From: Ecdyonurus torrentis
Lineage: Eukaryota; Arthropoda; Insecta; Ephemeroptera; Heptageniidae
NCBI GenBank assembly: GCA_949318235.1
Contig: OX439137.1
Span: 1,496,153 to 1,560,152, forward strand
Direction of reading: 5' to 3'
Length of the DNA stretch: 64,000 bases
Positions within the stretch are counted from its first letter, which is position 1. Every line of letters begins with the position of its first letter. The position numbers were made by a program, and so were the translations under genes. The notes beneath the pieces were generated by a model. The model did no database searches. It was given only the letters and a program-made list of their open reading frames with translations, and was not told the DNA's origin. Positions 27,469 to 48,500 of this stretch are shown piece after piece.

Positions 27469-27527
27469 ATGAATTTTATTTCATTTTCCACGATTTGTTT
27501 GCTAGTGCCTTTAATAGCCAATGCTTG
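27469..27527 (+). CDS. DNase II-like gene exon 1: signal peptide
   Basis: ATG at 27469 opens 19 codons plus 2 nt, then donor GTAAGT. The peptide has a short N region, a hydrophobic core ([11 protein letters not shown]) and a small-residue end (ANA), as expected for secretion. The next codon is completed as Cys by exon 2. Link to exon 2 (6.6 kb away) rests on matching phase and on the absence of any other plausible first exon. TTCACAG at 27451-27456 could be an acceptor for a 5' UTR intron. Confidence 0.75.
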
Positions 27528-30500
27528 GTAAGTAAATTAGCGATATTTAACAACGTAAAATTGTTAAATATTCATTTTCTCTTCGATAGAGGGGAAATTA
27601 CATGAGAGATAATTATTAATTATCCCAGGTAAATACCGAGGTTATATGTCCGAGTGGTGAAGGCAGCTGACTCGAATCTGTGTACTCCTCACCGAGCTTG
27701 GGTTCGAGCCACTGCTATAGGTGCGTACGTGAAGTGTGAGAGCACAACACGTTGCACGATGCATGTTTACATGCATTCCATGACGACGCACAGTATTTAA
27801 GAGGTGCATGATTGTTGTGATTGTACCGACTAGCCTGCCTAGATGTTTCCACGGTTTCTCTAGGCTGTCATGGTGAATGTCGGGCTGTGTACTTAGGCCT
27901 TGGCCGCCCCGTGTGTGCTATTCCATTAATCGGCATGTCCTTACCTGTCGATAAGACTATGTCTTGACTAGGACTGGGGTTGAAGTAACACAATATGGCA
28001 AACGATTGGATCATTTTCACCCTCTCGAGCGGTCTTACAAAAGACCAGAGTGGTCTAATGAACAAAGGCCACACGACTTCGATAGAAGCGTGATGTCCGG
28101 ACGAGTGGGATTATTTTTTAAAGTTCACTCTGTACTTCAAATGATTCTCAAAAGTCACATCTCTTTATTTTTTTTACATGGATAAAAAACAGTGAAATAA
28201 ATTTTTTATAATAGAGAATACTCTAAAAAGCAGTCTTCTAAAACTTAACGTTGGCAAACTGGGTTGATTTTTAAGAAATGTAATTTTTTTCTTATTTCTA
28301 AAAAAAAAAAAAAAAAAAAAAAAAAGGAAAAGAAAAATGTATAGTAATGTTATAAACTAGTGTATGAGCAATTTGTCACATATATTTTAATGTATTTACT
28401 AGAATTATAGCTTCAATATAGCCTTATATAAGTAGTCTTGTAATTGTTAACGGTAAAGGCATAGAAAACATTGAAACAACATGTTCTAAACACAAAATGG
28501 AATCTACAAAACTGATGATATTTTTTACCAGAATGTTAATGTAGCCCCACAAGAGAGCTTGAAAAAATGTAAAGTATGCAATTTGCGTGAATATTTCTGT
28601 TTATGACGTCATAAACAGGCAAAAACTAGTATAAAAATGTTGTGCGGGTTACATAAATCGAAATTTTCTGATCACTGCTACGGCGCTACAGTTGGGTTTT
28701 GAGACCAATTAATGTTATTTATGTAAGTCCCATCAAGTGTTTTGTTATGTAAATGCAAATGTTTTCATGTTGTCTATGCCTTTAAGTTACCTATAACGTT
28801 AACTGGTTATTTCTATAATATATATTAACAATTAACAACATTACAAACAGTAACGTTAAAGGGTCTATGCATTCATGTTAAAGTCGACGCCATGTTGGAT
28901 AACTCAATAACATGGGTGACATAGGAAAAAAATCATTTTTGCCAATTTAAAAATACTAAGCAATATTTTTGAGAGCATTGATGTTGTAAATATGTTGAAT
29001 TAGTATCTCAAGTATTTGAGACAAATAACAACAACAAAAAATTAACCAATTTCCTAAAGAAAATTGGCTTAAATGAAGTTCGTCCTATGCTGAGCAATGT
29101 TATGCACTACTCCAATATGGCCTCCAAGCGCAATAAATATGACGTCATCCGCATACACCCTATAGTTAAAGATTGACAAATATTGAAGTTAACATAGTGT
29201 TCTTTAACATAACTTTTGGAAAGAAAGTATTGCTTTAAACTGACTATAAATCAAAATCAAATAAAGGAGTTGAAAAAAAATATATATAAAAAAAAATTTT
29301 GATTTATAAATAAGTAAATATAAGAAAATATTACTCTTAATAATATGAATAATCACTGTCTAAAATATAAAAAAAAAATATATATATACCGTCTAAAAAA
29401 GCCGTTATCTCTTATATAGTTACGCAAGTTAACGTTATATAGTTGGAGACAAATTCCAGTTTACGTTGTCTGTTATAGTGTTTATAAAATGAACTCAATT
29501 AAACTAACAACTATTAGACTGCATTGATTATTATTATTTATTATTAATATGCACAATGAGGAAGGTGAATTGAAATTTTTTTGTTCAGTTTATGATATTT
29601 TTGGAAAGAGCTTTAAAAAATTTTGAGGCGTTATTTTTTCTTAGGACGATTGGAGCATGCGAAGTATTTTTAATAAATTTTTGAAAATCGGTCTAGAAAG
29701 CCTGTGACGTCATCAGTCCACTTTTTTCTCGGCAAATACTAATCTTTCGAGGTTCAGTAACCAGTTTAATGAAATCAGCTCGTCCTAAGGATTTCAAAAA
29801 TCTGGCTACTGAACCTTCTACGGTCAATACTTTCTTAAATAAATACCCAATTGATGACGTCATAGGCTTTTTAGGTCGATTTAAATAAATTAATTAAAAA
29901 TACTTCCCATGATCCAATCGTTCTAAGAAAAAATACCGCCTCAAAATTTTTTAACGCTCTTTTCAAAAATGTCATAAAAAGTGGGAGTTAAAAAAATTAA
30001 CCTTCCTCATTGTACATTATAAAAATGATTACCAATCAACCTACAAAAAACTTATTTTTAGTTTAGAATTTTAATTAATAAAATTTAAAAACCACGTGAA
30101 TTACCGTGAACTATGTGTTTACATTTAAAGACATAATACACTTTTTTTTAACTGCCTTTAGAGAATACTAAATGATAAATTTACATACCTTATTAAGGCC
30201 AAATTAGACCTGAATGCGTTGATTTTTTTATTTTGATTTATTTTCCATTTGAAGGTTGAAATAAAACTTTTCTGACGTCACAATGTACTGATGGGCTACG
30301 AAGTGGTTGAGAGTGTTTTGAATTTATCACGTGATCAAAGAACTTGACTGTGATTGGCTGATGATATGAGGCAGAGGGGGGGGGGGGGGAACGCCAGGAA
30401 AAAGTTGGAACTCCTAAACTATAGCTTGTTTTGTAAAGTAAAGTGAATCTCAACAACAGTGATTGGCTGACCAACAAAATACGACACATTCATTAGTGGA

Positions 30501-45500: not shown

Positions 45501-48500
45501 TTTACTTCCACTGACAAAATACGAGATAGGCCTTTTGCTCCCACTGACAAAATAAGAGATAGGCCTTGTTTTCGCAACAAGATTGATATGCACATAAGTC
45601 AACATTAAAATAGTGAATAATTACCTTTATTGCATTACTTTTCTCACGTAAATTTGCTAAAATAAAAATTGTCTTATATAATATTTTCTTTTTTTTTTTT
45701 TTTAGTTCTGCCACAATGGTTAGAGGTTATGCTATGGCTGCTAAAACATCGTATGTATTCCTTTAAGGGTTCTCTTCAGTTCGCTTGTATCTTGAAATCT
45801 AAAAAGGAAAATTCCTAATTTTTTATACCATCTTAAAGTTAATGGTAACAGCTACCCTTGATAAAAATTTCAGCACCCGTGAACATCAGATAAGAGAGAA
45901 ATTAATTACTGAAATTAACATGGGCTCTTATGGGACTAAAACTTCTAAAAATCGTAATTCAAAATCTAGCATGGTGACCCCCTAAAATTTTTATATTTTT
46001 TAAGTTATCTTACCCTAATCTATCACTGTGTTAAATTTCAGATTTTTCTGTTTTTACAACTTTTTAGTCAAATCCCGCAGTAGCTGATTTCCCGCCTTAA
46101 TTTAATTGATATTTATATAACTATAAAATGTTTAATATAAATTAAAGGCCTTGTCAACTTACTGTTTTATCATTTAGAATACTAGATAGATAATAAGATA
46201 ATGACGATATCTTATTATCCATGAATTAGACACCAACACGTTGAGTTTGTATTTATTATCATTTTGTAGGTTATATCACGTATCTGACGTCACAATGTAC
46301 CGATAGGGCCGTGATAGAGTCAAAGAGCCTGTGGGAGGGGCTTAACTTTATCACGTGACCAGAGCGGTGACTGTGATTGGCGGATGAGATTGTGACGTCA
46401 GATAAGTCTTATAACAGTCTAAATGAAAATAAATACAAAATCAACGTCTTGGTGTCTAATTCATGGATAATAAGAATGATTTTCGTAAACCCTGCCCCAA
46501 GTTCATGTTTTCGCTTGTATGGAAACTTAGAACACTTACTCCAACTTGCTCCTTTATTATTATTTTTTTTTAACATTTACCAAGTTTTTTTTTCTTAACA
46601 TAAATATGATTATTTAATATTTTCAACATTTTACCACTTTTTTGTATGATATTGCAAAAAAAAAAAAAAAAAAAAAAATCAAACACTTTAAAATTTTGGA
46701 ATAAAAATATAATTAATTTTATTACTGTCTTATTACTGACTTATGAGTCAAGTTTAACATTGGATTTAGTCGGGAAATCAGGTACTACGGGATTTGACTA
46801 AAAAATTGTAAAGACAGAAAAATGTGAAATTTTGCCCAGTGATACATTAGGATTAGGTATCTTCAAAAATGTGAAATCTATGGGGGGTCACCATGCTAGA
46901 TTTTTAATTATGATTTTTTGAAGTTTTAGTCCCATAAGAGTCCATGTTAATTTCAATAATTAATTTCTCTCCTATCTGATGGTCACGGGTTCTGAAAATC
47001 TTATCATAGGTAGCTGTTACTGTTAACTTTCAAATGGCATCATAAAATTTACAAGTTTTTTTTTTAGATTTTGAGATACAAGCCATCTGAGTACAATCCT
47101 TAATACGATTTCTACTTCTCAGCATGATGGTGCCTGCAGCAGCAGCAGGAGTTGGTGCTTTTGCGACAATACTTGCACTATTTGGAGGGGGTAGTAAGTC
47201 ATTAAAATTGTCTTTTAAAGTAATATAATATTATACTCTCGCAAAAACTTGCTAACACTTTAATTTATTGATATATATATATATATATATATATATATAT
47301 ATATATATATATATATATATATATATATATTTATAGACCACTTGCACTCATATTTAAGAGCCGCCATTTTGTTGGTCAGGAATACATAGGCCAGCATAGG
47401 AAAAACATCATTTTTATTTTTTTAATAGCAAAAGAAGCTTCAAACCTCAATCAAAGCCTTATTTCTAGCTCCTAATAAGCTCGAAGGATATGAGAAAAAT
47501 TTGTTGAGTTGAAATAAACTATTTTTTATGTGAAAAATTAGGAAAAACGAAGTTTCCCCTATGCTGGACAATGCATTAGTCACCACAAACATGGCGACAA
47601 AGCGCAAGGATGTGCAAGGGGGCTATATATATATATATATATATATATAGGAAGCAGTTTCTGAGTTAACCTTTTATCGGTGAAAATTTTTTGACGAATT
47701 TTTAATCAGTTTTTATATGATTAAATTAATAATCAAAGAAGTTCTATAATAATTAAATTATTGTTTTTTTTTTTATTGTCGTGTTATGTGGGAAAAATGT
47801 GGACAGGTAGACAAGGACAACCTAATGACAACCATGGAGCACCTCCTGATAACAACAATGGAGCGCCACCTAATAACAATGAAGGAACTCCAGGTAATAA
47901 TAATGAAGGAACTCCATCTAATGGGAACGACGATCCTCAACAAGGAATAAGTTGCTTAGATGAAAACAACAATGCGATTGATTGGTAATTACTAATTATT
48001 TATTATAAATACTATTTTACACACCTGTTTTTTTTTTTTTTTTTTTTTTTTTTTTTTTTATAAATAATTAAAATGTTGGATAAAGTTTAAGGCGTGAAAT
48101 CAGCTACTGCGGGATTTGACTAAAAAGTTGTAAAGACAGAAAAATCTGAAATTTTGTACAGTGATACATTAGGATTAGGTATCTTAAAAAATGTTAAAAT
48201 TTTGGGGGGTCACCATGCTAGATTTTTAATTATGATTTTTTGAAGTTTTAGTCCTATAAGAGCCCATGTTAATTTCAATATTTCAATATTACTGTTAACT
48301 TTAAGATGGCATCAAAAAATTAGGAACTTTCCTTTTTATATTTTGAAATACAAGCAAACTGCGAAGAGAACCCTTAAAGCTAATGTTTAATAATATTAAG
48401 ATTTTTCATGTAATATTGAGAAAAAGTATACATCAAGTTGTGTAACAAGGGTCTTTTTTTAGTCCGGTCTTTTTTCTGGTTTATAATAACAATTTAATGT

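Follow-up and report, generated by a model that had tools for sequence, protein, structure and literature searches.

A DNase II gene of the mayfly Ecdyonurus torrentis with a putative N-terminal stalk and five symmetric 45-nucleotide exons

A 64,000-nucleotide stretch of the genome of the mayfly Ecdyonurus torrentis (hereafter the window; C21:1496153-1560152, in an assembly of 503,193,034 bases and 117 contigs) carries a plus-strand gene whose 14 coding exons are joined by one continuous frame into a DNase II-type protein of 519 amino acids (1,557 coding nucleotides). Between its start codon and the nuclease domain lie a signal-peptide-like exon, five exons of exactly 45 nucleotides (nt) that each begin and end in phase 2, a hydrophobic exon, and a repeat-rich linker. 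We propose, with a probability of roughly 0.6, that one of at least three mayfly DNase II genes gained an N-terminal stalk consisting of a new signal-peptide exon, the microexons, the hydrophobic exon, and the linker. The exon anatomy, the frame, the intact domain, and the duplication of an exon pair are read directly from the genome. We infer the splicing of exons 1-7 onto the DNase II exons, the two groups being tied together at exon 8 by phase, by order, and by the little space that is left for another gene.

Results

Gene model and exon anatomy

The exon model was assembled by hand from genomic sequence alone. All 13 introns have GT-AG borders (donors of exons 1-13, acceptors of exons 2-14), and no N bases occur within the gene. 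Exon 1 (27469-27527, 59 nt) opens with ATG, encodes the signal-peptide-like leader, and exits in phase 2. It is followed by the 45-nt, phase 2-2 exons 2 (34146-34190, beginning with the split codon of C20), 3 (36953-36997), 4 (39007-39051), 5 (41071-41115), and 6 (45706-45750), by the hydrophobic exon 7 (47123-47193, 71 nt), which passes from phase 2 to phase 1, and by exon 8 (47807-47984), which has a weak acceptor and encodes both an Asn/Pro-rich linker and the start of the DNase II domain. The remainder of the domain is encoded by exons 9 (50125-50302), 10 (58848-59088, with HAKG and HTVP), 11 (59717-59926), 12 (60964-61069), and 13 (62526-62661, with TKDHSK), and is completed by exon 14, which lies outside the window at 67291-67443 in window numbering; an earlier reading of the gene had ended at 62661. 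Introns 1-13 measure 6618, 2762, 2009, 2019, 4590, 1372, 613, 2140, 8545, 628, 1037, 1456, and 4629 nt. An earlier note, made from the letters of this DNA, had described five AG/GT-bordered, phase 2-2 exons of 45 nt and an unbroken frame from a signal-peptide-like exon into DNase II; the five exons are present as described and in order before the enzyme, and the frame holds by way of 47123-47193 and 47807-47984 through all 14 coding exons.

The nuclease domain and its relatives

The Pfam DNase_II profile (PF03265) matches residues 167-496 with an E-value of 7.5e-63 and 213 bits against a cut-off of 23, covering profile positions 1-322 of 326; among solved structures, the closest in sequence is the putative DNase II 5i3e (1.1e-21). 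By this profile match the nuclease domain is intact and full-length, in support of the earlier note's reading of the enzyme as DNase II. Two HxK-type catalytic motifs are present, and HAK (261-263), H280, TKDHSK (DHSK at 448-451), and RGGG are invariant in the protein and in all six homologs to which it was compared. The protein contains Cys at positions 10, 20, 168, 306, 461, 480, and 517. Six Cys positions are common to the six homologs, of which four are kept here and two are missing (one of the missing positions is spread over a pair of adjacent alignment columns); two of the six have a Cys aligned with Cys517, and Cys20 falls in the extension.

The homolog set comprises six listed DNase IIs, three of them from Tetrahymena. 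The list is short although the database searched holds insect proteins, probably because the mayfly protein and animal DNase IIs have few identical five-residue words in common, and the set therefore says little about other insects. A short leader stands directly before the domain in five of these homologs, the sixth being a fragment that starts at the domain. Within the mayfly genome, ten DNase II matches fall into three loci, on contigs C21 (the present gene), C17, and C10, and tblastn with the protein spanned 18-19 kb at each paralog. The C17 paralog is ordinary: its leader and domain start share a single open stretch (MELAWSSRVILCLLILTLCNQCLAGRSDALTCKNENGQIIDW) that ends at a GTAAGT donor. 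The first exon of the C10 paralog can be read either as an internal exon or as leader and domain together, because its acceptor-like sequence could equally be part of a leader MFCVFLEFFGSITVDS; no 45-nt candidate passed the splice scan described below in the 9.5 kb upstream of its domain exon. The view that an ordinary DNase II begins its domain right behind the leader is thus borne out by five of six homologs and by C17. Over almost its entire length, the catalytic domain of the present gene, HxK and DHSK motifs included, is that of ordinary DNase II such as C17, and in both the present gene and C17 the first domain exon ends at a DW motif with a GT donor. The present gene differs in the approximately 146 residues that separate leader from domain, distributed over exons 2-8, and in the two Cys positions that it lacks and all six homologs keep.

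Composition of the extension

Residues 20-165 separate the signal-peptide-like exon from the domain, in agreement with the approximately 145 residues estimated earlier. The five microexons encode 75 of these residues; the others belong to the hydrophobic exon 7 and the linker. The linker is an Asn/Pro/Gly sequence encoded by 4.3 tandem copies of a 24-bp repeat. It shares exon 8 with the first residues of the domain, which makes the linker, at least, a part of DNase II. The exon 7 segment is rich in Ala and Gly and has a Kyte-Doolittle peak of 1.97. The plain sum of biological-scale (Hessa) values is at least +1.94 for any 19 residues of this segment; the exon 1 leader itself scores +2.15, so the measure discriminates poorly and the exon 7 sum argues only weakly for secretory passage over a membrane span. 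The helical moments of the 15-residue microexon segments are 0.30-0.42 for exons 3-6 and 0.18 for exon 2. Windows of 18 residues in the domain have a mean of 0.19 and reach 0.50, which makes an amphipathic reading of the microexon segments a moderate one. Residues 1-165 have no Pfam match.

Statistical standing of the 45-nt exons

A strict splice scan required a donor near GTRAGT, a pyrimidine-rich acceptor (at least 11 of 14), an open phase-2 frame, and a length of 15-120 nt, with cut-offs that were chosen after the exons had been seen. Between 27528 and 47122 it returned five candidates on the plus strand, four of which are 45 nt long, and three on the minus strand, none of that length. Across 200 order-4 Markov sequences, candidates of 45 nt averaged 0.035 per sequence and never numbered more than one, and on both strands of 273,800 bases around the gene (15,200 of them N) the strict 45-nt phase-2 candidates were just those four. 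Exon 4 (39007) misses the strict cut-off by one, with 10 of 14 pyrimidines preceding the AG; the corresponding counts for exons 2-7 range from 10 to 14. When the acceptor rule was relaxed, nine phase 2-2 candidates were obtained, namely all five exons and segments of 33, 36 (inside exon 4), 24, and 36 nt. The phase-2 frame is open in five of the five small exons, and the other two frames in one and two of them, respectively. The notion that exons 1-7 are open, splice-like stretches strung together by chance can appeal to the roughly 20 kb of AT-rich DNA in which they lie and to thresholds picked once the exons were known. It is highly improbable, given four strict candidates against an expectation of 0.035, the lack of any others in the 274 kb, and the pairwise homology among the 45-nt exons themselves, and chance exons were rejected on the Markov expectation, the 274-kb scan, and the relaxed scan. 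Intron 2 may contain a further phase 2-2 exon, of 33 nt (35129-35161), whose acceptor is weak.

Origin of the array

Exons 3 and 5 are identical at 33 of 45 nt and exons 4 and 6 at 27 of 45 nt, values reached with frequencies of 0 and 0.0001, respectively, in 20,000 codon shuffles; the best of the remaining eight pairs, exons 4 and 5, matches at 20 of 45 nt (shuffle frequency 0.055). The two strong matches indicate that a two-exon block was duplicated once. Similarity between the duplicates extends about 30-60 nt into the introns and then fades, and since exon similarity outlasts intron similarity, the length, openness, and splice sites of the exons have outlived the introns. Serial exon duplication, as the earlier note had envisaged it, was not seen, the pair duplication (3-4 to 5-6) being the only one detectable; serial duplication of a single exon finds no support, as exon 2 resembles none of the remaining 45-nt exons (10-13 of 45 nt, shuffle frequencies 0.55-0.80). 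By tblastn and exon scan, no cluster of sister genes was found within 274 kb.

The locus also contains ten copies of a 340-bp repeat with TTAA-like ends, distributed within 20829-64193. One copy (40696-41036) ends about 35 bp ahead of exon 5, one (45762-46102) begins 11 bp past the exon 6 donor, and one (46764-47103) ends about 20 bp ahead of exon 7. A role for this repeat as the cause of the exon duplication is unsupported, because similarity is 95% between the copies that adjoin exons 5 and 6, against 73% and 60% between the exon duplicates.

Junction of the extension with the enzyme

Intron 6, 1,372 nt in length, has a copy of the 340-bp repeat against each end, which leaves little room for the end or the promoter of another gene. 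Ahead of exon 8, a T-tract ends about 30 nt upstream of the acceptor, within a 65-nt zone that is free of AG. The segment directly upstream of exon 8 (47725-47806) is a leader-like open frame without a preceding ATG, and the codons of an ancestral signal peptide may have been turned into the exon 8 splice acceptor and intron, with the caveat that T-rich tracts read as hydrophobic by chance too.

Other features

An 11-copy, 57-bp tandem repeat occupies 38018-38646 in intron 3, and an open stretch at 61570-61775 in intron 12 ends at a stop and has no Pfam match. Pfam searches with ten other open frames of the window gave no match, nor did Rfam and tRNA scans of the window. Elsewhere in the assembly, the mitochondrial contig C117 (15,686 bases) carries nad2 and cox1 (invertebrate code) within its first 3 kb, with two trnM-like copies before nad2, a tRNA order read by eye as M-nad2-W-C-Y, and a tandem-repeat stretch; ARAGORN listed no tRNA there. 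A cox1 reading of 369 residues from this contig has 99% identity to the cox1 of the mayfly Epeorus pellucidus and 98% to that of Isonychia.

Discussion

In gaining a stalk, the gene would have acquired four elements ahead of what had been its first domain exon, namely a new exon for the signal peptide, the five phase-2 exons of 45 nt, the hydrophobic exon, and the linker. Two of the five 45-nt exons would have come from the copying of an exon pair, and the Asn/Pro linker may have grown by repeat expansion. The protein is most likely secreted, or else lysosomal, and its stalk, with brief segments of moderate amphipathicity, a hydrophobic segment, and a flexible linker, most likely serves to tether or cluster an acid nuclease. 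Every small exon is symmetric, so the length of the stalk could be changed by exon skipping with the enzyme unharmed. The further idea of a splice-tunable cassette array, in which the five symmetric exons are independently included or skipped to give up to 32 in-frame forms and many stalk lengths, appears to us unlikely.

Several findings weigh against the gain of a stalk and bear on the alternatives to it. Exon 7 starts with two successive start codons (ATG ATG) and might on its own encode a signal peptide, its hydrophobic leader continuing in frame into DNase II. The transcripts of the enzyme might then begin at exon 7 with an ordinary signal peptide, and exons 1-6 would be a separate small secreted microexon gene or would reflect the use of an alternative promoter in some transcripts. 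Such a start would restore the usual order of leader and enzyme and would avoid two successive hydrophobic segments. A membrane-spanning exon 7 behind a cleaved signal peptide would put the nuclease in the cytosol, where a DNase II makes little sense. We nevertheless consider a start at exon 7 doubtful, given that a good acceptor precedes this exon (tttctacttctcag, 11 of 14 pyrimidines) in the exact phase for joining exon 6, and that the 340-bp repeat ending some 20 bp upstream leaves little space for a promoter or 5' untranslated region. The acceptor of exon 8 is also unfavourable to the gain of a stalk, with 2 of 14 pyrimidines before its AG compared with the 10-14 of exons 2-7.

The remaining adverse findings concern the extension peptide. 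A homolog search with residues 1-120 scored 742 candidates and found none at E <= 10. Between the exon duplicates, nonsynonymous and synonymous differences per site (pN and pS) are 0.28 and 0.32 for one pair and 0.38 and 0.47 for the other (14 codons each); pN is about equal to pS, so the comparison gives no sign of purifying selection on the duplicate peptides. These values would fit a microexon array that, though real, is in decay or sees little use, and that arose neutrally as introns grew and an exon pair was duplicated, its extra peptide having no role. The repeat-rich locus, with its ten copies of the 340-bp element, would fit such an array as well, and so would the loss from the domain of two Cys positions that the six homologs all have. 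Decay of this kind is distinctly unlikely, however, when each of the five small exons retains its 45 nt, its open frame, and its GT-AG borders, and when the domain retains its catalytic motifs and matches almost the full profile. If transcripts confirm the gain of a stalk by this DNase II, the gene would provide a tractable case for the origin of an exon array by exon-pair duplication in large, repeat-rich introns, as well as an example of how a leader of several exons can take the place of a signal-peptide exon. Since enzyme activity lends itself to assay, the effect of each cassette would be measurable.

Comparison with known systems

To our knowledge, the known microexon arrays, those of the schistosome micro-exon genes (MEG) and the aphid bicycle genes, belong to rapidly evolving secreted families and never front a recognisable enzyme. 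Bicycle proteins carry paired C-Y-C motifs, and by its Cys positions the mayfly protein has none. No DNase II gene with such microexons or such an N-terminal extension was found among titles and the openings of abstracts, in which the subscription literature is thinly covered. Within the DNase II family, the Trichinella plancitoxin-1-like protein is, like the mayfly protein, a DNase II enzyme with two HKD-type motifs, and the family has been studied in excretory-secretory products (PMC4148230, available text). The available text of that paper contains none of the terms N-terminal, intron, or exon (PMC4148230), and the mayfly data show no toxic role.

The earlier note had also likened the array to MEG and bicycle genes, a likeness that stands for exon size and phase and goes no further. 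In the available portions of the bicycle study, these genes are described as putative secreted effectors with many small internal phase-2 exons, a kind of exon that the mayfly gene shares (PMC9168663). The mayfly gene is instead mostly an enzyme with larger exons; eight of its 12 internal exons start in phase 2, fewer than the "almost all" of bicycle genes, and the published classifier, applied with its printed coefficients, gives a linear score of -31.5 and a probability of 2e-14 against a cut-off of 0.72 (PMC9168663). Schistosome MEG, according to the accessible sections of a recent account, have a signal peptide, short exons of 3-81 bp, and long introns, all of which recur here, the signal peptide being putative (PMC10526429). 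In the same sections, the longest protein of an 87-sequence alignment has 189 residues, a size that the 519 residues of the mayfly protein do not fit, and a hydrophobic motif with W and a basic residue, variant in one clade, follows the signal peptide; the standard W motif so described is absent from the mayfly protein, which has no W in residues 1-177 (PMC10526429). Coding exons of at most 81 nt make up seven of the 14 and hold 355 of the 1,557 coding nt, 225 of them in the 45-nt exons, a composition that departs from the short-exon pattern of MEG. Skipping of microexons gives MEG their alternative splicing, a mode that the symmetric exons here would permit. Taken together, the rejection by the bicycle classifier and the mismatch with MEG in motif and size indicate that this gene belongs to DNase II and resembles both microexon families in part of its gene structure only.

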